Below are positions 53,336 to 64,000 of a stretch of 64,000 nucleotides of DNA, piece after piece. The stretch lies in NCBI GenBank assembly GCA_009712635.1, contig WASS01000020.1:815208-879207 (forward strand), read 5' to 3'. The notes under the pieces are model-generated. The model saw nothing but the letters and a program-made list of their open reading frames with translations, was not told where the DNA came from and searched no databases. A program made the translations under genes and the position numbers. Within the stretch, counting starts at the first letter, position 1. Each line of letters begins with the position of its first letter. This stretch comes from Hungatella sp. GTDB taxonomy: Bacteria > Bacillota > Clostridia > Lachnospirales > Lachnospiraceae.

Positions 53336-54634
53336 CTAGTTGAATCTTGTTTTTGCAACGGAATAGATATCCTCAATGAGTTTAAGACCGCCTTCATATC
53401 CTGCGTAATAGCTGTTCATGATCAAGCGTTCATTTACCGGCCATGATACATTTAAAAAATGAGCATTGGTCTGCTTTGCGACTTCCTTTTCCCAATGCCC
53501 CCCTAAAATCAGGGGGTATCCATGATAGTCATGGGCTTTAATTTCATTGTGAATGTTAAATCCATCGGTATCAAAGCTGACTTCTGCCTCTATGATGTAA
53601 TTTAAATCTTTGAAATAGGAGCGGACCTTTTCCTGATACTCCCTGGGTGTATCATCTACAACAAACTGCTTAGCCGGGAAAAGCCCCAGGTCATTAACCA
53701 GAAATTTTGTTATTCCCAGCGCATACTGGGCATCTGCTACTACGGTAAACTGTTTTGACATGACTCTGGTTTCCAGGAACAGATCTGCATAGCGTTCAAT
53801 GTAGTAATAGTAAGACGACTCTTCCTCTGATATAACTGCTTCCACTTTTTCTTCCGGCACTCCCGCATATGTTCCGATTTCACGTAAGAATTTACTGGTT
53901 TCAAATGCACCAATTGGAAGGGTTGGATAATGCAGATATGGAATTCCAAGCTTTTGCTCCATCTTCTTCATATTGGTAAGCCCCACCCATGGAGAGATCA
54001 GTAAGTTAAACTCAGCCGCAGGAATCTTTTTGATATTCTCAATTCCCCGATTGTATCCGAATATAATGTTGGGGGTTAATCCCAGCTTTTTCACCAGACG
54101 TTCCAGTTCCTTATAATTTCCATGCCAGAACTCATCCTGATAAGGAACGTCTGCCCAGATATTAACAAGGCCCTTAATCCTGATCTTAGATGGTTCTAAA
54201 TACTGTTCCGTCAGCGCATCAATGACCTGTTCATGACCCTTGTAGTTATTGCCCTTAAATCCGGCAGTTAAGGCATATATCACAGGCTTTTCTTCCTCCT
54301 TGAATCCAGATACCACTTCCTCTGTGTTATCTCCCACAATCTCCGGAATGCAGCCGGTTAATACCACATATAAGTCTGCATCAATCACTTCAAGGGAGTG
54401 GCGGATGGTCGATTCCAGCTTCTTTACTCCGCCAAAGACCACATCCCGCTCATTAATGCTGGTACAGGGGTAAATATTAGGAGAGAAATATCCGGAGCTT
54501 CCGGTGGAACCTGATAGCTTTTGGGCACAGCCGGGTCCTGAATGAAGAACAGGAATTGCTCTTTCTATTGCCTGAACTGTCTGCATTGCACTCATTGCAC
54601 ATTTATATCTTTGTTTATCCAGAATTTTTGCCAT
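53336..54634 (-). CDS. Nitrogenase-like component 1, beta-type subunit (NifK-like), pair 2
   Basis: A 432-residue NifK/BchB-superfamily protein. The three P-cluster-type cysteines are C12 (RYKCAMS), C36 (HSGPGCAQK) and C95 (LTGCIPEIVGDN). It lacks the long N-terminal extension of true NifK. It should dimerise with the adjacent alpha-type subunit and receive electrons from the NifH-like protein. The ATG at 54634 shares a base with the stop of the alpha gene (TGATG), with AGAGGAGG upstream, so production is coupled. Not a fixation-type nitrogenase by the partner's active-site residues. Confidence 0.86.
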   Translation of the reverse strand: MAKILDKQRYKCAMSAMQTVQAIERAIPVLHSGPGCAQKLSGSTGSSGYFSPNIYPCTSINERDVVFGGVKKLESTIRHSLEVIDADLYVVLTGCIPEIVGDNTEEVVSGFKEEEKPVIYALTAGFKGNNYKGHEQVIDALTEQYLEPSKIRIKGLVNIWADVPYQDEFWHGNYKELERLVKKLGLTPNIIFGYNRGIENIKKIPAAEFNLLISPWVGLTNMKKMEQKLGIPYLHYPTLPIGAFETSKFLREIGTYAGVPEEKVEAVISEEESSYYYYIERYADLFLETRVMSKQFTVVADAQYALGITKFLVNDLGLFPAKQFVVDDTPREYQEKVRSYFKDLNYIIEAEVSFDTDGFNIHNEIKAHDYHGYPLILGGHWEKEVAKQTNAHFLNVSWPVNERLIMNSYYAGYEGGLKLIEDIYSVAKTRFN

Positions 54635-56097
54635 CAGCTGATCGCCTCCTCTAAAAATTTTCCTACTTCCTGCTGATACCACCAGTCGGTATAGGGCAGC
54701 TTCACCCTCTTTGCCAGATTCTGTTCAAAGCTTCGGTTGCGAATGGTATCTAAAATTGCATGAGCAAATTCCAGAGTATGTTTATAACCGAAAATCATAT
54801 ACTCATCTGCAACATAAACAGCCGGTGTTCCCTGCTTGATTGCCCATACTGTGGAACCCGGATGTCTGGAAAGGTATAGATCCGGCCGGAATTTATTTAA
54901 AATATTCATAACTTCAAAATTCTGCTGATCTGCCACGCTGGCTTCGAAATTAATATCATTTTCCAGAAGATAGCTCATGGCAGGCGGGATCTCCCCATTT
55001 TCATACCGTTTGTCATAATGCCACGCCAATGCCCATACCACTTCTATTCCCAGTTCGTTCAGCACTCTGGTCACTTCAAAGGTATAACCGGGTCCCATTC
55101 CAAGAACTGCCTTTAAGCCTTTTAATTCTTTTTTCACCGCCTCAATCTGAGGGATGTAAATGTTTCTCTGCTCCTCAATATAGCGTTCTACCTGGGGCTG
55201 TTTTCCCGCAACTCTTCCGATTTCACGAAGCCAGGTTTCAAATCCGGTGATTCCAAGGGGGTTAATCGTCCTGATATAGGGAACTCCATAAACTTCCTCC
55301 AGACCATTTCCAAGGTAATTTCCCAGCGTCCCGCAGATACAGGTGGTTGCAACCGCCTCTGATAGATGCTTCAGCTCTTCTACCGTAGCATTTGCATAGA
55401 GGAAAACCGGTTCCAGATCAAAATTCTGAAACATTTCTATGATTTCGTTTCTGGCACTTTCATAGAAATTTTTAAAATTAATGGTGTTTTGCTTTTTTCT
55501 GGGAGGCTCAACAATTCCGCTTAGAACAGCGTGATCGGAAATATCAAAGCCGGTAGCCCATATCCGGGATTTAAAGCCTTCACAGTGGACTGCAATAACC
55601 GGCACAGGAATTGCTTCTTTCACTTCATCCACCACGCTGTCAATATCTTCTCCTATGATTCCTGTTGCGCAGGAGCTGCTGACAAAAATTGCTTTTGGAT
55701 GATACCGTCTGTTTACTTCTAGAATAATTTCCGCCAATGCATCTGTGGATCCAAAGATGGTATCATTCTCATCCATATCCGTTCCGATGTACACAGAGCT
55801 GTTAACTACGCCTCGTTTTGCTGCGACCTGATTGGTAACAATATATTGGGAACTGGCTGTTGCCGAACAGCCTGCCGGGCCATGATGAATGATCGCCACA
55901 TCCCGGATTCCTCCAAGCTGGCCTAGTGCACAGCCGGATAAACAGGTGCTGGACTGGGAAAAGCAGCGGCTGCATCCAGTCAGGGTCCCGCATTTGCTTT
56001 GACTTGCAAGGTCTTCTAAATCTCCCACATACCCGGTTATGGAACCCAACCGGTTCTCTCTGGTTCCAAGATTGGAACCTGATAACTGAAATGCCAT
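54634..56097 (-). CDS. Nitrogenase-like component 1, alpha-type subunit (NifD-like), pair 2
   Basis: A 487-residue NifD/NifE-superfamily protein. P-cluster-type cysteines are C56 (or C52), C77 (HHGPAGCS) and C143 (SSSCATGIIGEDI). By eye, Cys255 in TTCICGTLGNY lies where nitrogenase has cofactor ligand Cys275. In CEGFKSRIWATGFD the residues facing nitrogenase alpha-Gln191 and alpha-His195 are Trp180 and Phe184, and the region of His442 (YVADEYMIFGYKH) has no equivalent HSWDY. This argues against N2 reduction. Additional N-terminal cysteines (36, 42, 45) are unusual. GGAGG precedes the ATG. It follows cysK by 27 bases. Confidence 0.87.
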   Translation of the reverse strand: MAFQLSGSNLGTRENRLGSITGYVGDLEDLASQSKCGTLTGCSRCFSQSSTCLSGCALGQLGGIRDVAIIHHGPAGCSATASSQYIVTNQVAAKRGVVNSSVYIGTDMDENDTIFGSTDALAEIILEVNRRYHPKAIFVSSSCATGIIGEDIDSVVDEVKEAIPVPVIAVHCEGFKSRIWATGFDISDHAVLSGIVEPPRKKQNTINFKNFYESARNEIIEMFQNFDLEPVFLYANATVEELKHLSEAVATTCICGTLGNYLGNGLEEVYGVPYIRTINPLGITGFETWLREIGRVAGKQPQVERYIEEQRNIYIPQIEAVKKELKGLKAVLGMGPGYTFEVTRVLNELGIEVVWALAWHYDKRYENGEIPPAMSYLLENDINFEASVADQQNFEVMNILNKFRPDLYLSRHPGSTVWAIKQGTPAVYVADEYMIFGYKHTLEFAHAILDTIRNRSFEQNLAKRVKLPYTDWWYQQEVGKFLEEAIS

Positions 56098-56124
56098 TTT
56101 TAAACCTCCATTTAGCCTTATACT

Positions 56125-57108
56125 TTATTCAAACAGTTTGGTTGACAGGTAGCGAAGACCGGTATCAGCCAGAATGACCACAATATTTTTTCCTCTGTTT
56201 TCTTCCCTTTTCCCAATCTGAACCGCCGCATAAATAGCTGCTCCAGAAGAGGTTCCAACTAAAATCCCATCGGTTTTTGCCACGTCTCTGGCGGTTTCAT
56301 ATGCCTGGTACGTTTCCACCTCCACCTTTTCATCGTAGATGGAACGATCCATATTCTTTGGAATCCGTTCCTCCGGTACTCCTTCAAACGGGTGAACACC
56401 GGTTATGTCGGGAGGAAATGGATCCGACTCATTGGGAAGAGACCCTGGTCCCGGCTGGATTGCAATAATCTTAAGATCCGGATTCTTTTTCTTTAGATAC
56501 TTACCTGCTCCTGACACGGTTCCCCCTGTGCCCACGCAGGCTACCAGTATATCCACAGTTCCATCGGTATCTTCCCATATTTCAGGACCTGTGGTTTGTT
56601 CATGAACGGACGGATTGGCTGGATTCTCAATCTGATTTACGAAGAAGATATTGCTTTCTTTGGACAAAACTTTTTCCTCAAGAGCTTTAATCGCCGCTAC
56701 AAAATCGCCGCCTGTTTCATCAAGAACCGCTTTCACTTCTTTTACTTCTGAAAGCTTAATGGTTTCTCCTCCAAAAGCTCTGATATTCTTAAACCGCTCC
56801 TCACTTACCTGATCCTGCATGTATACCCGGAATCCATAGCCTTTGCTGGCCGCTATGGCTGCCAGACCAATCCCTGTATTACCGCTGGTTGTTTCCACAA
56901 TGGTATCACCGGGTTTTAATAATCCTTTTTCCTCTGCATCCTCGATCATTGCCCTGGCAATTCTGTCCTTCACATTCTGATTGGGATTAAAATACTCCAG
57001 TTTTGCAATAATTTTTGCATTTAGTCCCAGCTTTTTTTCATAATTGACCAGTTCCAGAAGGGGTGTTTTTCCAATGAGTTCCGTAATTGATTGATGTATG
57101 GCAGCCAT
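56125..57108 (-). CDS. cysK: Cysteine synthase (O-acetylserine sulfhydrylase)
   Basis: A 327-residue fold-type II PLP enzyme that makes cysteine from O-acetylserine and sulfide. The PLP lysine lies in FNPNQNVKDRIA (most family members read NPGGSVKDR), the substrate loop is TTSGNTGIGLA, and the phosphate-binding loop is GTGGTVSGAG. It sits between nifH and the second DK pair, 32 bases after nifH and 27 bases before nifD-2. The placement implies that sulfide is the product of the nitrogenase-like reaction, or of a downstream step, and is captured at once. Confidence 0.92.
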   Translation of the reverse strand: MAAIHQSITELIGKTPLLELVNYEKKLGLNAKIIAKLEYFNPNQNVKDRIARAMIEDAEEKGLLKPGDTIVETTSGNTGIGLAAIAASKGYGFRVYMQDQVSEERFKNIRAFGGETIKLSEVKEVKAVLDETGGDFVAAIKALEEKVLSKESNIFFVNQIENPANPSVHEQTTGPEIWEDTDGTVDILVACVGTGGTVSGAGKYLKKKNPDLKIIAIQPGPGSLPNESDPFPPDITGVHPFEGVPEERIPKNMDRSIYDEKVEVETYQAYETARDVAKTDGILVGTSSGAAIYAAVQIGKREENRGKNIVVILADTGLRYLSTKLFE

Positions 57109-57140
57109 ATAGATTCTCCTTTCAGGGCTCGTAAACGTTT

Positions 57141-58013
<873 letters not shown>

Positions 58014-58017
58014 TCAA

Positions 58018-59304
58018 TTATAAATTGTCGTATAAATCTTCTATCAATGTTAAACTTCCCCTGTAACCGGCATAGGCTCTGTTAAAAATCAAACGATCCT
58101 TTATAGGGAACGCTGCAACAATATTTTGAACTTCTTTTAAAGAACTGACCTCCTCTTCATTGCTGCTTCCGATAATCAGAGAAATATCCTCCTGCTTTAA
58201 CAGTTCCTGATTGATCTCATACTGATCCGCACAGAATACAACTCTGGGCGGTTTGGCATATTCCAGTGTCATCAGTTCTGTAACAATTCTCTCCTTGTCT
58301 TCCTGTCTGTAAAGAGGCTCTGAAATAATGACAAGCACCGGCGTGAAACTGTAGTCATTGGCTAAGTAACGGGTAATACCCACTGCCGTAGATCCGTCGG
58401 CAACTACTGCAAATTTCTTCCAGCTCAATGTTCCAATGGCCTGAGCCAGATACCGGTAAACATAAACCTCCTCTTCTTCCAGAACCTGATTTACCAGCCG
58501 GTCATCGAGCTTTAATGCTTCTGCTACTTTCAAAACAAAACGTCTGGTATCGCTGGCTCCGATTGGAAGTCCGGGATAACGGATATAAGGAACATGAAAT
58601 TTCTCTTCAAATCTTTCTGCAGGGCCTTTTAATATCCAGGGATGGATGATAATATTTAACGATGCTCTTGCACAGGACTTTATGGTTTCCATCCCCTGCT
58701 GTTCTGTAAAAAAAGTGTTGACTTTTAGTCCAAGCTTTTTTAAAATGCGGGAAATTTCTTCTAAGTTTCCACTCCAGAAAGGATCGTGGTATGGAATAAT
58801 TCCAAACAGATTAACAAGATTTTCTTCCTTTTCTTCCGTCGGTTCAATCACCTGGTCAATCATGGTATTCCATATTACTTCATAACCTAAATTGCTGTCT
58901 CCTGCAAATCCCGGGGTTTCGATGGGAAAAACAGGGATACCCTTTTCTCTGAATTCAGTAGTCACGCTCACAATATCATCTCCTATAATACCCGCTGTAC
59001 AGCCAGTCAGTACAAAGTAGGCGTCTGCATCGATAATTTCAACCGCCCCCTCAATGGTGGTTTTCAGTTTCTGAGTTCCTCCAAATACCACTTCACGCTC
59101 CAGCATATTGCTGGACGGAATGGAAACACTGCTTACAAAACTGGAACTTTTATTCCCGGACTGTCCCGGATCGGAAGCAGTTGTCTGCATACAGCAGCCC
59201 GGCCCAGCATGGTAAACGGGGCATACCCGGTTAAGGGCTCCCAAAACGGAATTAATACCAGCCAGCACACAGCCCCCTCTGGGATTTTCTATCACCTGAG
59301 ACAT
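58018..59304 (-). CDS. Nitrogenase-like component 1, beta-type subunit (NifK-like), pair 1
   Basis: A 428-residue NifK-superfamily protein. P-cluster-type cysteines C12 (RGGCVLAG), C37 (AGPGCCMQ) and C102 (LTGCTAGIIGDD) are all kept. NifN scaffold proteins usually keep only one of the three, so this does not look like a NifN by that test. ATG at 59304 starts two bases past the alpha stop (TGAGATG) and has GGAGG upstream. NifH follows 28 bases downstream. Confidence 0.86.
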   Translation of the reverse strand: MSQVIENPRGGCVLAGINSVLGALNRVCPVYHAGPGCCMQTTASDPGQSGNKSSSFVSSVSIPSSNMLEREVVFGGTQKLKTTIEGAVEIIDADAYFVLTGCTAGIIGDDIVSVTTEFREKGIPVFPIETPGFAGDSNLGYEVIWNTMIDQVIEPTEEKEENLVNLFGIIPYHDPFWSGNLEEISRILKKLGLKVNTFFTEQQGMETIKSCARASLNIIIHPWILKGPAERFEEKFHVPYIRYPGLPIGASDTRRFVLKVAEALKLDDRLVNQVLEEEEVYVYRYLAQAIGTLSWKKFAVVADGSTAVGITRYLANDYSFTPVLVIISEPLYRQEDKERIVTELMTLEYAKPPRVVFCADQYEINQELLKQEDISLIIGSSNEEEVSSLKEVQNIVAAFPIKDRLIFNRAYAGYRGSLTLIEDLYDNL

Positions 59305-59305
59305 C

Positions 59306-60751
59306 TCATTCACCTCCGATTATGTATTGAAATGGATCTTTTTCATACCAGCTCTCTTTATATGGAAGCTTTACATGCTGGGAAAGTTTTACGTTAAAGC
59401 CTGGATTTTCCAGCTGGTCTGCTATTTTATTACCCAAAAACAAAAGCCCGTCATAGCCCATGGTAGGACGTTTCATATCAAGAACATGGGTTGTTGGGAT
59501 TCCAAGCTTTGCTGCCCACTCCGGTACACCGATAAAGACATCAGGTTTTAACCGCTTCACCAGATTCACCTGCTCGAAGGGCTGCATATTGGCAATATCA
59601 ATCACATAGTCCGAATGTATGGTATTTAAATATTCAATATCTGCCTGCGCATCTTCATCGTAAGTCGGTGTCTCAAGCCCTACCAGCACCATACCAAAAT
59701 CATCAATCAAGGCCGCCGCTGCAAATGACCGGCCCGTTCCGCCGCAGATAAATACCCGTTTGCCCTTCAGCCGGTCTTTTATGGATTCCACTAAGGGAAG
59801 AATTCTTTCATGTTCTCTCTGTATAATTTCTTCTGCTTCTTTTTCTTTTCCTACAATTCCGGCAATTCCCCGAAACCAGATATCCGTGTTTCTGACTCCA
59901 ATGGGCATAACCGTGTGGGAATAGGGTATCTTATAATCCTCATAAAGAGTCTTCATAAATTCATCTGCAAAGACCTTACAGATGGAGGTAGATGCCTCTG
60001 CAGCGGGAATTTCCTTTATTTTTTCCAGTGAACTGTAAAATGGAATATAGTTTACTTGAAGCCCCAGAAGGGACAGCATACGTTCCATCTCCTTTTGATC
60101 GGAATAACTGATGGATACGGGAGCAAATAAATTAATCAATCCTTTTTTCTTCTCCAGTTTTTCCTTTTTTAAAATGTACTGGTTAATGGAAAGAAACGCT
60201 GCATCAAATCCGGAAGCACATATTTTGGATTTAAATCCTTCACAATGAATGGGAATGAGAAGAGCCTGTGTCTCCTCCTGCAATTTTTTTAAAATGGCAT
60301 CAATATCATCTCCGATAATACCGGAAGCACAGGAAGCAAATACAAAAATCAGCTTGGGATGATAGCGTAGGGTTGCATCACCAACCGCTTTTTTAAGCTT
60401 ATCTTCACCTCCGAAGATTACATTGTTCTGATCCAGATTTGATACTATGATCCGCGGATTTTTGATGTTTTTTACTCCCCGGTGCGCCTGCCCCACCCGG
60501 TACTGGTCCACTGCCAGAGAGGTACAGCCCACACACCCCTGTGGGGAATGGGCAATAAAAACTGAATCCTCCAGTGACATAAGTGCTGCCATGCTGTTAA
60601 TCTGCTGACATTGAAGACCCTGGGCAAAGCTTCGGTCTGCCTTTTTTAAACAGCCGTTTTTAAAATCTTTCTCTGCCTGACTTCCTGTAGAACCCAGATC
60701 GTTATACCGGTTTGGACGGCTTTCCCGGATTCCTGAATAGTTTTCACTCAT
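59306..60751 (-). CDS. Nitrogenase-like component 1, alpha-type subunit (NifD-like), pair 1
   Basis: A 481-residue NifD/NifE-superfamily protein, recognisably paralogous to the 54.6-56.1 kb protein. P-cluster-type cysteines C48 (GLQCQQIN), C73 (HSPQGCVGC) and C141 (FASCASGIIGDDI). CEGFKSKICASGFD has Cys178 and Phe182 where nitrogenase has Gln191 and His195. STSICKVFADEF keeps a Cys at the cofactor-ligand position. It forms a pair with the beta-type gene that follows directly. Either a second enzyme or a cofactor-assembly platform. Confidence 0.86.
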   Translation of the reverse strand: MSENYSGIRESRPNRYNDLGSTGSQAEKDFKNGCLKKADRSFAQGLQCQQINSMAALMSLEDSVFIAHSPQGCVGCTSLAVDQYRVGQAHRGVKNIKNPRIIVSNLDQNNVIFGGEDKLKKAVGDATLRYHPKLIFVFASCASGIIGDDIDAILKKLQEETQALLIPIHCEGFKSKICASGFDAAFLSINQYILKKEKLEKKKGLINLFAPVSISYSDQKEMERMLSLLGLQVNYIPFYSSLEKIKEIPAAEASTSICKVFADEFMKTLYEDYKIPYSHTVMPIGVRNTDIWFRGIAGIVGKEKEAEEIIQREHERILPLVESIKDRLKGKRVFICGGTGRSFAAAALIDDFGMVLVGLETPTYDEDAQADIEYLNTIHSDYVIDIANMQPFEQVNLVKRLKPDVFIGVPEWAAKLGIPTTHVLDMKRPTMGYDGLLFLGNKIADQLENPGFNVKLSQHVKLPYKESWYEKDPFQYIIGGE

Positions 60752-60757
60752 GCTCTT

Positions 60758-61126
60758 TCATCCTTTCTCTTCTTTCTTAAATAAATTCTGGACTTCTATA
60801 TAAGAAAGAAGTCTTTGAACAGAATCCTCTATCAGTCCGGGCAATTCAAAGGCCCATGTTCCATTTTCTGCAAGAGCGGATCTGGCTCCTTCACCAATTC
60901 TGCTTACCAGAACATAATCACAATCTCCCAGCAAATCTGCCACTGTTCTTAGTTCCCTGTCATCATGCTCCTGCTGTTTGCAGACTGGAGCCGTCATTCT
61001 GGTCTCCTGGTACCAAAAGGTTCTGTCGGAACTGTCTGCTTTTATAATGTGAAATTCTTCTGTTCTTCCAAAATGCTGATTGATTACCTTTCCGTCTGAC
61101 GATGCTGCTGCAATTTTGTAAATCAT
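60758..61126 (-). CDS. NifX-like (Fe-Mo cofactor binding domain) protein
   Basis: A 122-residue single-domain protein of the NifX/NafY/NifB-C family: YKIAAASSDGKVINQHFGRT, with the conserved His in QHFG, and DLLGDCDYVLVSRIGEGAR as the second conserved part. Such proteins bind NifB-co and VK-type clusters. It follows nifB and precedes the first DK pair by 6 bases. In many NifB proteins this domain is fused; here it is separate. ATG at 61126 has GAGGG upstream at a loose distance. Confidence 0.87.
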   Translation of the reverse strand: MIYKIAAASSDGKVINQHFGRTEEFHIIKADSSDRTFWYQETRMTAPVCKQQEHDDRELRTVADLLGDCDYVLVSRIGEGARSALAENGTWAFELPGLIEDSVQRLLSYIEVQNLFKKEEKG

Positions 61127-61149
61127 TGAAATCCAACCCTCTTTCACTA

Positions 61150-62022
61150 TCAGCCATGAGAAAATGTATCACTTCCCACAATCCTTCTTTGATATATTAA
61201 ATCTCCATAATCCTTTCCACCCAAAAGCCCTACCGCATCTGCACGGCAATGCTGGCAATGGCGGAAGACATCAATATGCTTTCCAGCCAGGGCTCTGGCC
61301 TCCTCAATCTGACTGCATACAGGAGCCTGCTCATTTCTTAAATCTGACTGGGGAATCAGCGGAATCAGATTATAAATCTGTGCCCCTCTTTCTTTTACAG
61401 CCTTGGCAATGTCTTCAATGTGCTCTCCGTTTATGCTTGGAACCAGCACGGTATTTACTTTGACTGTAATTCCCGCAGCTGCAATTTTTTCAATCCCCTT
61501 CAGCTGATTCTCAATTAAGATGGCAGCGGCCTCGACTCCAATGTATACTTTTCCATGGTAGACAATCAGGCGGTTAAGCTTTGCCTGGATTTCAGGATCT
61601 ACGCCATTCACCGTAACAGTTAAAGAATCCACTCCTGCTTCTATTATTTCTTCTGCCCGTTCGGAAAGAAGAAGTCCATTGGTGCTCATACATTTAATCA
61701 GCCTTGGGTATTTTTCTCTGATCAGACGGAATGTTTCCAGTGCATAATCCGTAGCCAGTGTATCCCCTGGTCCTGCAATTCCGGCAACTGTAATTTCCGG
61801 ACACAGCTTTAATGCTTTTTCAAGAACTTCCATGGCTTCCTGGGGTGTAAGTACCTGTGACGTTACTCCTGGTCTTTCCTCATGATCATTGATCTTTCTG
61901 TCACAGAATTTACAGGATATATTGCAGCCAGGGCTTACGGGAAGATGAATTCTTCCGGTATTGTTTCTGTTTCCTCCAAAGCATGGGTGAAAACTTTTTA
62001 GTTTCTGATATGTATCGGCCAT
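61150..62022 (-). CDS. nifB: NifB-type radical SAM cofactor synthase
   Basis: A 290-residue NifB core without fused NifX domain. HPCF (residues 12-15) and GRIHLPVSPGCN are diagnostic. The radical-SAM cluster cysteines are C33-x3-C37-x2-C40. RPGVTS, IAGPGDTLAT and the C-terminal HCQHCRADAVGLLG (C256, C259) complete the family pattern. NifB fuses two [4Fe-4S] units with a carbide to NifB-co, the precursor of all nitrogenase cofactors, so an Fe-S-C cofactor of this lineage is likely in the DK proteins. ATG at 62022 has GTGAGGT upstream; an in-frame ATG at 62079 falls inside a terminator hairpin and is rejected. Confidence 0.92.
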   Translation of the reverse strand: MADTYQKLKSFHPCFGGNRNNTGRIHLPVSPGCNISCKFCDRKINDHEERPGVTSQVLTPQEAMEVLEKALKLCPEITVAGIAGPGDTLATDYALETFRLIREKYPRLIKCMSTNGLLLSERAEEIIEAGVDSLTVTVNGVDPEIQAKLNRLIVYHGKVYIGVEAAAILIENQLKGIEKIAAAGITVKVNTVLVPSINGEHIEDIAKAVKERGAQIYNLIPLIPQSDLRNEQAPVCSQIEEARALAGKHIDVFRHCQHCRADAVGLLGGKDYGDLIYQRRIVGSDTFSHG

Positions 62023-62050
62023 CTTTACCTCACTTTCAAAAATTGATAAC

Positions 62051-62108
62051 AAAAAAGACAACCTTCGTCTGATATGCATGATTTTGCTTATCAGAACCTC
62101 CGGTTGTC
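62051..62108 (-). terminator. Terminator-like hairpin between the yezD-like gene and nifB
   Basis: On the minus strand GACAACC (62108-62102) pairs with GGTTGTC (62063-62057), with an inner TCTGATA/TATCAGA stem, followed by six T (62056-62051). It lies inside the operon, so it probably lowers, and may regulate, read-through into nifB. Confidence 0.8.
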
Positions 62109-62111
62109 CAG

Positions 62112-62276
62112 TCAGTCCTTTAATCTGATTTTTTCATTTTTTTCAATCTGTACGATTTTCCCGTCTTGAATGGTTATGGTTATGGAACCATATTTTACAT
62201 CTCTCGCCATCTCATTGATCAGATGCAGGTAATCTTTATCCGACTTTGATGAATCTGCATAGGGTATAGGAATCAC
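62112..62276 (-). CDS. YezD-like (DUF2292) small protein
   Basis: A 54-residue protein too small for ordinary gene calling. The C-terminal part (RDVKYGSITITIQDGKIVQ, then IEKNEKIRL) matches the DUF2292/YezD pattern well. Members of this family are often found beside sulfate, sulfonate and cysteine genes; function unknown. The frame begins at a GTG (62276) directly after GAGAAG, with a stop two codons above it. There is no ATG in the frame before the conserved part. The start could also be ATT or ATA just downstream, so it is uncertain. It is the first structural gene after the leader attenuator. Confidence 0.68.
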   Translation of the reverse strand: MIPIPYADSSKSDKDYLHLINEMARDVKYGSITITIQDGKIVQIEKNEKIRLKD

Positions 62277-62365
62277 CTTCTCTCATTTCATAATGGTTGA
62301 CTGGTGTTAGCCCCGGGCGGTATGCAAATGTTGATGATCTGATTTTCTCATTAACATTTTTTTAT

Positions 62366-62421
62366 AAAAAAAACAGGTACAATTGAAGTACCTGCCACCC
62401 CCTCAGTAACGGACTCAGGTA
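62366..62421 (-). promoter_or_regulatory. Cysteine attenuator: antiterminator and terminator
   Basis: In RNA order, segment 1 UACCUG (62421-62416), segment 2 CAGGUAC (62394-62388) and segment 3 GUACCUG (62380-62374), then eight U (62373-62366). Segments 2 and 3 form a 7-bp terminator. Segments 1 and 2 are complementary and would form an antiterminator. Segment 1 begins two bases after the leader-peptide stop codon, so a ribosome that finishes the peptide would cover it and allow the terminator. A ribosome stalled at the Cys codons about 50 bases upstream would leave it free. This is the geometry of classical ribosome-mediated attenuation. Confidence 0.85.
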
Positions 62422-62423
62422 TT

Positions 62424-62534
62424 TTAATGCATAGAAAAACAAACTGTATTCTTACACTCGAACTCAGCTTTACAACAACAACTCATCTGATATGTAAATT
62501 GAAAATTCTTTGTATTAATTACAGAATTTTTCAT
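62424..62534 (-). CDS. Cysteine-rich leader peptide, 36 aa
   Basis: A 36-codon frame with a strong ribosome site (AAAGGAGAGG, ten bases before the ATG). The peptide has three consecutive Cys (residues 19-21, in QMSCCCKAEF) and two more at 27 and 32, and stops just before the attenuator. It starts about 60 bases past the -10 of a perfect promoter. The content and position are those of a leader peptide whose translation reads out cysteinyl-tRNA supply. I know of no close named example in Clostridia; Cys-rich leader peptides before sulfur genes are known in actinobacteria. Confidence 0.88.
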   Translation of the reverse strand: MKNSVINTKNFQFTYQMSCCCKAEFECKNTVCFSMH

Positions 62535-62591
62535 ATGCTTATTACCTCTCCTTTGCATTCCCTATTAAAGTTATATGTTAATATGCTTTGA

Positions 62592-62620
62592 ATTATAATC
62601 TTATCTGATTAAGTTGTCAA
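62592..62620 (-). promoter_or_regulatory. Perfect consensus sigma-A promoter of the nitrogenase-like operon
   Basis: On the minus strand TTGACA (62620-62615), exactly 17 bases, TATAAT (62597-62592). Both hexamers and the spacer are consensus. The expected transcript start is near 62585, about 50 bases before the leader peptide ATG. No sigma-54 (GG-N10-GC) site was noticed upstream. Confidence 0.92.
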
Positions 62621-62686
62621 TCTTTTTTTTATTTTTTATTTTCTCGCATCGCTTCACTGGTTCTCATTAATAAGCAGAATAAAGAA

Positions 62687-62733
62687 AAACCAGAGATGCA
62701 AAGACAGAATATTCTGCTTTACTCCTCTGGTTT
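62687..62733 (-). terminator. Terminator after the SulP gene
   Basis: AAACCAGAG (62687-62695) pairs with CTCTGGTTT (62725-62733), with an inner GCAGAATATTCTG hairpin and T-rich sequence on the minus strand. It separates sulP from the promoter of the following operon. Confidence 0.85.
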
Positions 62734-62751
62734 ATAATCCTAATAGTCAAA

Positions 62752-64000
62752 TCACATGGCTTTTGCCATCAAAAGCGCCTCATCAATGCATCCTGCCAGG
62801 TTCTCTCTCCCCACGGACTCCAAAAAGCCCGCCCGTTCCATCATGGACATGGGCTGGTCATTAACATGGGATAAAATAAGGGTCACATGCTTTCTTTTTA
62901 AATTCTGATTTAATTTTTCCAGACTTTTTAATGCAGTCGCATCCATAGCCGGAACACTTCTCATTCTAAGAATCAGAACTCGTTTCCCCTCTTCTATTAT
63001 CAGCTGGGAAATCTTTTCCGCTGCCCCAAAGAACATGGGACCGCTTACTTCAAAAACAGCAACATGCTTTGGCACAGGTTTTAAGTCTATGGATTCGCTG
63101 CTGTTTTCTTCATCCTCTAAGTACTTCCAGCTGCTTACTTCTGTCACATCAGCCATACGTTTCATGAACAGCAGAGAAGCAAATAAAATTCCGACTGCAA
63201 TGGCTGTCACCAGATCAAAAGCAACGGTAAATACGAAAGTAACAAGAAGCACGGACCAGTCACTCTTGGGTGCTGTCTTCAAGATGGAAAGAAAGACCCT
63301 CCACTCACTCATGTTATAAGCTACCATAAAGAGTATAGCAGCGATAGCCGGCATGGGAATTAAAGCCGCATAAGGCATTAAAAATACTAGAACCAGAAGA
63401 AGCATCACTGCATGAACCATGCCTGCTACAGGTGTTCTTCCGCCGTTTTTTATGTTAGCAGCAGTTCTTGCTATGGCTCCAGTTGCTGGAATTCCGCCAA
63501 AAAGAGCGGAACAGATATTACCGGCTCCCTGGGCAACCAGCTCCATATTGGAATTATGTCTGCTTCCTACCATTCCGTCTGCAACTACGCAGGATAATAA
63601 AGATTCTACCGCTGCCAGAACCGCTATGGTCATTGCATCCGGCATTACCTTTTGTACCATGGCAAGAGAAAATACAGGAAGATGAAAGGTGGGAAGATCC
63701 GATGATATGGTGTACAAATCTCCGATGGTATTTACCGGAAGGTGAAACACTTTTACAAGACCCGCCGTTAGGATAACGGCAATCAGTGACGGCGGTATGG
63801 TCTTAAAAAATCTGGGCCATACAATCAAAACAATGAGCGCTGTAAATCCCACTGCAAGAGCCATGGGATTGAGGGTACCAATGCTGTGTACCACCTCACT
63901 GACTTTTCCAAGAGTTTCGATTGGGGCATGCCCAAAGGTAAGTCCCATAAAATCCTTGATCTGACCAATGAATATAGTAACAGCGATTCCTGTGGTAAAT
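62752..64000 (-). CDS. SulP-family anion transporter with STAS domain (5' part outside window)
   Basis: The frame is open to the window edge; the residues before the in-frame ATG at 63948 (FTTGIAVTIFIGQIKDF) are still family-like, so the true start is upstream of this window. The visible 415 residues contain about seven membrane segments, with GSRHNSNMELVAQGAGN and GIPATGAIARTAANIKNGG, and a C-terminal STAS domain (ILRMRSVPAMDATALKSLE). SulP proteins import sulfate, bicarbonate or other anions. Proximity to the sulfur operon suggests sulfate, but there is a terminator in between. Confidence 0.92.
   Translation of the reverse strand, partial: FTTGIAVTIFIGQIKDFMGLTFGHAPIETLGKVSEVVHSIGTLNPMALAVGFTALIVLIVWPRFFKTIPPSLIAVILTAGLVKVFHLPVNTIGDLYTISSDLPTFHLPVFSLAMVQKVMPDAMTIAVLAAVESLLSCVVADGMVGSRHNSNMELVAQGAGNICSALFGGIPATGAIARTAANIKNGGRTPVAGMVHAVMLLLVLVFLMPYAALIPMPAIAAILFMVAYNMSEWRVFLSILKTAPKSDWSVLLVTFVFTVAFDLVTAIAVGILFASLLFMKRMADVTEVSSWKYLEDEENSSESIDLKPVPKHVAVFEVSGPMFFGAAEKISQLIIEEGKRVLILRMRSVPAMDATALKSLEKLNQNLKRKHVTLILSHVNDQPMSMMERAGFLESVGRENLAGCIDEALLMAKAM

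Follow-up and report, generated by a model that had tools for sequence, protein, structure and literature searches.

The stretch of DNA analysed here (the window; 64,000 nucleotides of Hungatella sp., GenBank assembly GCA_009712635.1) carries a nitrogenase-like operon on its minus strand, as are all features described below. Its first gene encodes a yezD-like small protein (DUF2292; 62112..62276; PF10055, E 2.6e-17) that weakly resembles the sulfur-starvation protein OscA (NF033785, 37.1 bits, below the cut-off of 85). It is followed by a nifB-like radical SAM gene (61150..62022, with 62022 as its probable start; PF04055; TIGR01290 at 262.5 bits, below the cut-off of 343.65) and, by domain matches, by a nifX-like gene, two nitrogenase component-1-like genes and a nifH-like gene (57141..61147). 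A cysK homologue of the cysteine synthase family (56125..57108; PF00291; TIGR01136 at 329.4 bits, below the cut-off of 344.15) and a second pair of component-1-like genes (53336..56097; domain and structure-chain matches) complete the set, so that the part of the operon at 53336-61147 combines a cysK homologue with two component-1-like pairs. For the two component-1-like members tested, the closest solved chains are methylthio-alkane reductase: the protein encoded at 54634-56097 matches 9FMG, a methylthio-alkane reductase according to the accessible part of PMC12552129, at E 6e-91 and 9D9U at E 9e-91, whereas true NifD is matched at best at 4e-31. The nitrogenase-like system is probably carbon-sulfur bond-cleaving. 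Transporter genes lie past the operon genes, with cystine and aliphatic sulfonate binding proteins as best models, below cut-offs, and a SulP-type sulfate permease gene with a STAS domain (62752-63999) lies just upstream on the same strand. A cysteine gauge would be a sensible control on such an operon.

Between the permease gene and yezD lies a leader region (62620-62366). Its promoter, TTGACA-17-TATAAT (62592..62620), has 12 of 12 consensus bases, and a looser promoter rule finds a promoter-like site in 38 of the 53 leaders examined. The Shine-Dalgarno site AAAGGAGAGG (62545..62554) precedes a leader frame of 36 codons plus stop, MKNSVINTKNFQFTYQMSCCCKAEFECKNTVCFSMH (62424..62534; ATG at 62534, stop at 62426-62424). 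An alternative in-frame ATG at 62558 has a poorer ribosome site, and more distant congeners, which carry AAAGGA at the position of the window's Shine-Dalgarno site, keep the inner start alone. The frame is translatable and contains five Cys codons: three consecutive ones at codons 19-21 (62472..62480), which sequence and conservation mark as the candidate control codons, and two more at codons 27 and 32. The control codons match cysteine, and a cysK homologue lies inside the operon. Just past the three Cys codons, still inside the frame, is a hairpin GCUGAGU/AUACAGU (62443..62468) that corresponds to a covarying helix in relatives, with one A-A mismatch in the window's copy. Two bases past the stop codon begins UACCUG (62421-62416), which can pair with CAGGUA (62394-62389) to form a putative antiterminator (62389..62421). 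CAGGUA is also part of the 5' arm of an intrinsic terminator, GGCAGGUAC-UUCAAUU-GUACCUGUU with U tract (62366..62396), and sequence and computed folds make the two overlapping structures mutually exclusive before the first gene. The terminator stem, CAGGUAC/GUACCUG, is followed by eight U (62373-62366). The preliminary description had listed a strong ribosome site, five Cys in 36 codons with three consecutive, a stop two bases before the competing strand and a 7-bp terminator with eight U; all were present where it had put them, and a further G-G/U-U extends the terminator to 9 pairs.

Taken individually, the structures in the window are modest. A simple scan of 61900-62800 on both strands finds three terminator-like sites, the window's included, versus 0.4 in shuffles. 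The terminator segment folds only modestly better than its shuffles (z -2.06), and UACCUG/CAGGUA taken alone is borderline (p 0.06); hence, the case rests on conservation. A further pairing in the window's full-length fold, AGGUA of the Shine-Dalgarno region with UACCU, would have implied termination without translation, but more distant congeners do not have it and it was dropped.

We consider it very probable that the window leader controls transcription by ribosome-mediated attenuation, with charged tRNA-Cys as the signal sensed. If Cys-tRNA is ample, a ribosome translating the leader frame would reach the stop codon and cover UACCUG, CAGGUAC would pair with GUACCUG, and RNA polymerase would stop before yezD. 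With scarce Cys-tRNA, the ribosome would instead stall on the Cys codons approximately 48 nt upstream, UACCUG would pair with CAGGUA, no terminator would form, and read-through would allow the yezD/nifB-like/nitrogenase-like/cysK operon to be transcribed. The hairpin behind the Cys codons is placed before a U-rich stretch, which suggests a polymerase pause that could perhaps keep ribosome and polymerase in step. Computed nascent-RNA folds for ten leaders of the window's type agree with the attenuator reading of the preliminary description: a ribosome placed on the first Cys codon leaves the UACCUG strand free and gives the antiterminator a probability of 0.51-0.97, and with a ribosome at the stop the 5' strand (UACCUG or its ACCUG/GCCUG counterpart) is covered in the same ten leaders, an occlusion that follows by construction from the assumed ribosome footprint of 13 nt from the A site.

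The placement of the stop codon fits this scheme in the window, in nine further leaders of its type, in the cysK leader of the window's own genome and in L159. It fails for L080 and for ten leaders before stand-alone cysK in relatives: there the strand lies 16-22 nt past the stop, beyond the assumed footprint, and direct occlusion is no explanation; in three of these ten cysK leaders the stalled-state probability is 0.03-0.39. Some further pairing must act in all the leaders that do not fit, or the model is incomplete.

The window genome's nifB-like protein shares 98% identity with its counterpart in Lacrimispora xylanisolvens DSM 3808, and an orthologue at at least 78% identity occurs in 12 of 25 genus genomes, the window's own included. 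All 12 have a Cys-cluster frame before yezD-nifB, and 11 of them retain a run of four codons with three or more Cys, an RCCUG strand past the stop and a CAGGUAC..GUACCUG-U terminator. The exception (L005, genome G012) has a shortened CC frame and no matching terminator; it appears as a decayed leader, as does the truncated copy L119 (G005). Within the genus the N-terminal half of the peptide varies and the Cys run is constant, with TGT/TGC exchange at the Cys codons. In a wider set, the DNA upstream of a related nifB-like gene in 80 named loci holds 31 sense Cys-cluster frames. Shine-Dalgarno sites precede 27 of these, which were counted as leaders (the four others were left out), and 26 of the 27 also have a terminator; by this rule 53 of the 80 loci, some with little upstream DNA, have no Cys leader. 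Cultured named examples are L. xylanisolvens, L. algidixylanolytica, [Clostridium] aerotolerans, L. celerecrescens and Konateibacter massiliensis.

These counts also bear on whether a frame could stand upstream of an ordinary terminator by chance. Cys-cluster frames do turn up in 4 of 89 opposite-strand regions near cysK and 13 times antisense in the 80 named loci, but none of the 13 has a Shine-Dalgarno site; frames with both that site and a terminator number 26 sense versus 0 antisense, and all 12 genus genomes that carry the operon have a Cys-cluster leader. A chance origin is hardly credible. The preliminary description had proposed a search upstream of homologous operons and had made its reading depend on conservation in relatives; Cys-rich short frames with a terminator proved to recur in that position and before cysK, so that the conservation it asked for is present, and the Cys cluster is kept.

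Conservation in homologous operons holds, and is patchy beyond the genus. Stretches from 39 other family genomes that carry the nifB-like gene were examined, and nine of them have a Cys-cluster frame, L098 and L101 being weak. Other Cys-containing frames in these 39 stretches, some of which are short (L069, L075, L078, L086, L095 and L100), were judged not to be leaders. In L101 (1464-1583), a Cys-rich frame and a terminator-like hairpin with U run stand before a LysR-type regulator gene (PF00126). There is also a second leader type, MCCMCCMC-like and without the hairpin of the first type, 1.0-1.3 kb before the nifB-like gene (L169, L172, L194, L199, L201, L211, L213, L216, L218, L222, L224 and L227). 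Its Cys codons UGUUGU could pair with AACAAC, and AACAAC pairs with the terminator's GUUGUU in several of them.

The hairpin behind the Cys codons was examined in an alignment (MAFFT, RNAalifold) of 26 of 38 distinct leader segments. The window (L002), L007, L009, L130, L121, L170, L159, L145, L080, L081, L085 and L088 were left out, partly for odd spacing, so that the window's mismatched copy has no row in it. The alignment yields one 9-pair hairpin straight behind the Cys codons with 96.2% of cells paired, a value reached by 11 of 500 shuffles and compared with 29-49% in slid controls, and with three pairs changed on both sides (1 of 500 shuffles). The covariation score (19 of 500) and the number of cells changed on both sides (110 of 500) are weaker; these two of the five measures are barely or not beyond shuffles. 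For the full set of 38 segments, the best-scoring arms were taken, with a guard on the letters of the 3' arm; these give 24 distinct arm pairs, and 159 of their 168 pairs are standard. The score was reached by 7 of 5,000 shuffles; L088 is mispaired in this test, its 5' arm preceding the segment. The preliminary description had suggested covariation between the segments of the antiterminator and terminator. Within the genus that signal is weak, the segments hardly varying there, and the strongest covariation lies in this hairpin, which the description had omitted.

The hairpin also offers an account of the peptide, as the codons for (K/Q)(T/A)V..NTV look conserved because the covarying helix occupies them. 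This matters for two readings in which the peptide itself is functional. In one, the product of the Cys-rich frame would be a metal-binding peptide or a RiPP precursor on which the radical SAM neighbour acts, and the terminator would only set an expression ratio. A Cys-rich peptide beside a radical SAM gene would suit this, as would the C-terminal residues KTVCMYMNTAYFCMY, which are invariant in several congeners, but the same kind of leader stands directly before stand-alone cysK, the number and spacing of Cys vary widely among leaders, the conserved C-terminal codons coincide with the covarying hairpin, and the frame belongs to no Pfam family. We regard a functional peptide as very unlikely. 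The RiPP precursor in particular was rejected, given the frame without Pfam match and a neighbour whose best NCBIfam model is NifB, below cut-off. In the other reading, the C-terminal part of the nascent peptide stalls the ribosome on a sulfur metabolite and the Cys run is incidental. That part is indeed conserved within the genus, but between genera little beyond the Cys cluster and the hairpin codons is retained, and leaders such as MCQMCSMCCRTN are entirely without it, leaving nascent-peptide arrest only a slim chance. Attenuation by a ribosome stalled on Cys codons remains the preferred reading.

Across the leaders, a terminator is found by rule in 48 of 53. By eye, a hairpin with U run is also present in L131, L159 and L098, but not in L257 and L262, the two other rule misses. 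Tested one by one, 6 of 48 leaders have a significant antiterminator (p<0.05). Other lineages pair other letters at its place, for example AACAAC/GUUGUU, or CCGGCUU/AAGCUGG against CUGGCUU/AAGCCAG; in the L070/L166 lineage a 7-pair helix abuts, and does not clearly overlap, the terminator arm.

Leaders of this kind are not confined to the nitrogenase-like operon. A covariance model built from ten genus leaders matches, at an E value of at most 1, 18 of the 25 genus genomes, and a leader stands before stand-alone cysK in 14 of the 25, namely 13 congeners and the window's own genome, whose second leader is MKNNRDQKNRKWNQYICCCQAVCYRKKTVLLDCSF (L231). In one genome a leader precedes a family-3 solute-binding protein gene (PF00497; L127), and G008 has a second leader copy (L126). 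Of the 31 genus matches, G008:C1:1235645 was left unread, L137 is a known leader met on its opposite strand, and no leader is present at L125. When applied to the family sample, the same model matches 14 of 397 genomes at E 0.1 or better, and ten of these matches, own included, are leaders by reading (L147-L150 are not). Among family leaders, L141 (MKNRQTRDRMCMMMCCCQVVCMNTA) precedes an NlpA-type lipoprotein gene and L145 an ABC ATPase gene with a NIL domain. A second RNA model found a leader before cysK in another family (L334, G537); outside the family it had very few matches, in 5 of 295 genomes of the order and 2 of 371 of the class, the window's own genome being counted in both. The leader targets are sulfur genes, which may be counted in favour of cysteine sensing.

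For the 89 best-scoring family cysK genes from a longer list, a leader was found before 10, with the doubtful L318 left out of the count, and 79 were without one. No terminator was found after the poly-Cys frames before cysK in L257, L261 and L262, so another output (translation or Rho) is possible there; in L249 none was found by rule in the cysK scan, and another scan found one at the same leader (L081). The device is patchy in distribution, and many relatives must regulate otherwise, because 53 of 80 named loci and 79 of 89 cysK genes lack a leader.

Promoter sequences raise a different kind of control. A palindrome CCTAY-N-RTAGG lies just past the -10 box in 23 of 53 leaders (for example, L008, L128, L070 and L080), and cysK of L069 and L086, two loci with no leader found, is preceded by similar sites; the palindrome is reminiscent of Rrf2-type operators. 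A promoter repressor could then be the main control, with leader and terminator giving a constant low read-through. However, this would leave the Cys cluster, the stop position and the alternative pairing unexplained, and the promoter in the window departs from the palindrome rule. We judge it highly improbable that such a repressor is the main control, and retain attenuation on the Cys codons as the explanation of the leader.

A second cis element, CUGACUGGACAACCGGAGGU overlapping a terminator, lies between yezD and the nifB-like gene (62051..62115; pattern and covariation). It is a near-invariant hairpin, CUGACUGGAnAACCrGAGGU, also present in L126, L127, L078 and L089. Exact pattern matches occur at nine sites in 8 of 21 genomes, own included, and by coordinates all nine lie before a nifB-like gene or behind a Cys leader; 24 of the 72 named loci with enough upstream DNA have the element within 450 nt of the nifB-like gene. 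We collected 44 distinct copies of the CUGACUGGA element and aligned the 27 with a terminator by eye. In these 27 copies, 99.2% of cells are compatible with a 10-pair hairpin. Its outer stem covaries: one pair has both sides changed in 11 cells (0 of 500 shuffles). The element has no Rfam match, and its motif letters led to no related publication among the matches listed.

In many relatives the operon also includes a tRNA-Cys gene. This gene lies directly before the nifB-like gene, on the same strand, in 36 of 80 named loci (within L158-L229). The anticodon is GCA in 35 and ACA in one, the acceptor stem is paired 7/7 in 35, and the discriminator base is A in 17 and G in 19, that is, a purine in 36 of 36 and never U. 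A tRNA-Cys also lies between the leader and the solute-binding-protein gene of L127 (1315-1386) and in L070 (6541-6610), and there is no such tRNA-Cys in the window or in L151-L156. At one tRNA-Cys locus, L163, no CysRS was found among ten of its 13 longer frames. In the part of PMC8762117 available, U73 is the CysRS identity base and tRNA-Cys with A73 or G73 is reported for some methanogens. The accessible part of PMC5424206 did not yield nitrogenase together with the discriminator base, and no link of tRNACys to nitrogenase or nifB in Clostridia operons was found among the literature matches listed. Tentatively, Lachnospiraceae and relatives may share a cysteine-attenuator regulon that has a conserved post-Cys hairpin and in which the nitrogenase-like operon is wired to cysteine at several RNA levels simultaneously (the leader, the orphan hairpin and, in many relatives, tRNA-Cys); we consider this broader picture possible and still doubtful. 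If it is true, the operonic tRNA would be a dedicated tRNA-Cys of sulfur scavenging, perhaps non-translational or regulatory.

Firmicute cysteine genes are usually described as under T-box or CymR control, and a T-box (RF00230) senses tRNA charging to control a terminator in Firmicutes. At the leader sites, no riboswitch or T-box reaches the Rfam gathering score, and a lax scan of the leader region gives one snoRNA match (15 bits versus a gathering score of 40). T-box control was rejected, as its covariance model matches neither the window nor any of the six leader loci tested; elsewhere in the window's genome it has 18 matches, 14 of them above cut-off. These leaders suggest that Firmicute cysteine genes need not depend on T-boxes or CymR. 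They point to a possible mechanism by which cysteine shortage switches on a nitrogenase-like system in gut and rumen Clostridia, and they mark poorly known genes (yezD, nifB-like and the operonic tRNA-Cys) as belonging to cysteine supply. They are also short and testable in ordinary laboratory hosts.

The preliminary description had called a translating-ribosome attenuator unusual for Firmicutes. This is so only in part, as leader attenuation is already known there; among the literature matches listed, in which subscription papers are mostly uncovered, we found no published cysteine leader attenuator in Firmicutes, and the version for cysteine was not found in print in the sources as far as they were accessible. 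Canestrari 2020 reportedly deals, by its title, with leaderless poly-Cys frames. From the mycobacterial leaderless type, so far as its description is accessible, the window leader differs in having a Shine-Dalgarno site, an intrinsic terminator and an antiterminator. The accessible part of PMC1262725 describes poly-Cys leader frames, without conserved terminator hairpins, for cys/cbs operons of Mycobacterium, Propionibacterium and Bifidobacterium; these actinobacterial leaders resemble the window's in that a frame with consecutive Cys codons precedes cysteine genes.

For the operon itself, the closest solved relatives of the tested component-1-like proteins belong to the methylthio-alkane reductase operon marBHDK, as presented in the accessible part of PMC12552129. 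Unlike marBHDK, the window operon has two component-1 pairs, a cysK homologue and yezD; the accessible parts of PMC12552129 and PMC11423573 did not yield cysK, Clostridia or sulfur limitation. For the leader, a close counterpart is uORFC-8-2, a predicted Cys attenuator before cysS in Rhodobacterales (PMC8632094, in its accessible part). It likewise has a short frame, tandem Cys codons, a terminator with U run and a proposed attenuation by Cys-tRNA, but it belongs to Alphaproteobacteria and cysS and has two conserved tandem Cys codons inside the first stem, whereas the leaders described here are from Firmicutes, precede cysK and a nitrogenase-like operon, and mostly have runs of 3-5 Cys codons. 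Within Firmicutes, the accessible parts of the respective papers describe the hisS/hisZ leader attenuators of bacilli, for His (PMC2965389), and Rli60 of Listeria, a tested leader attenuator for branched-chain amino acids (PMC5864092). Both share with the proposed mechanism a ribosome-mediated attenuation through leader peptide, antiterminator and terminator, and differ in sensing His or branched-chain amino acids, not Cys.
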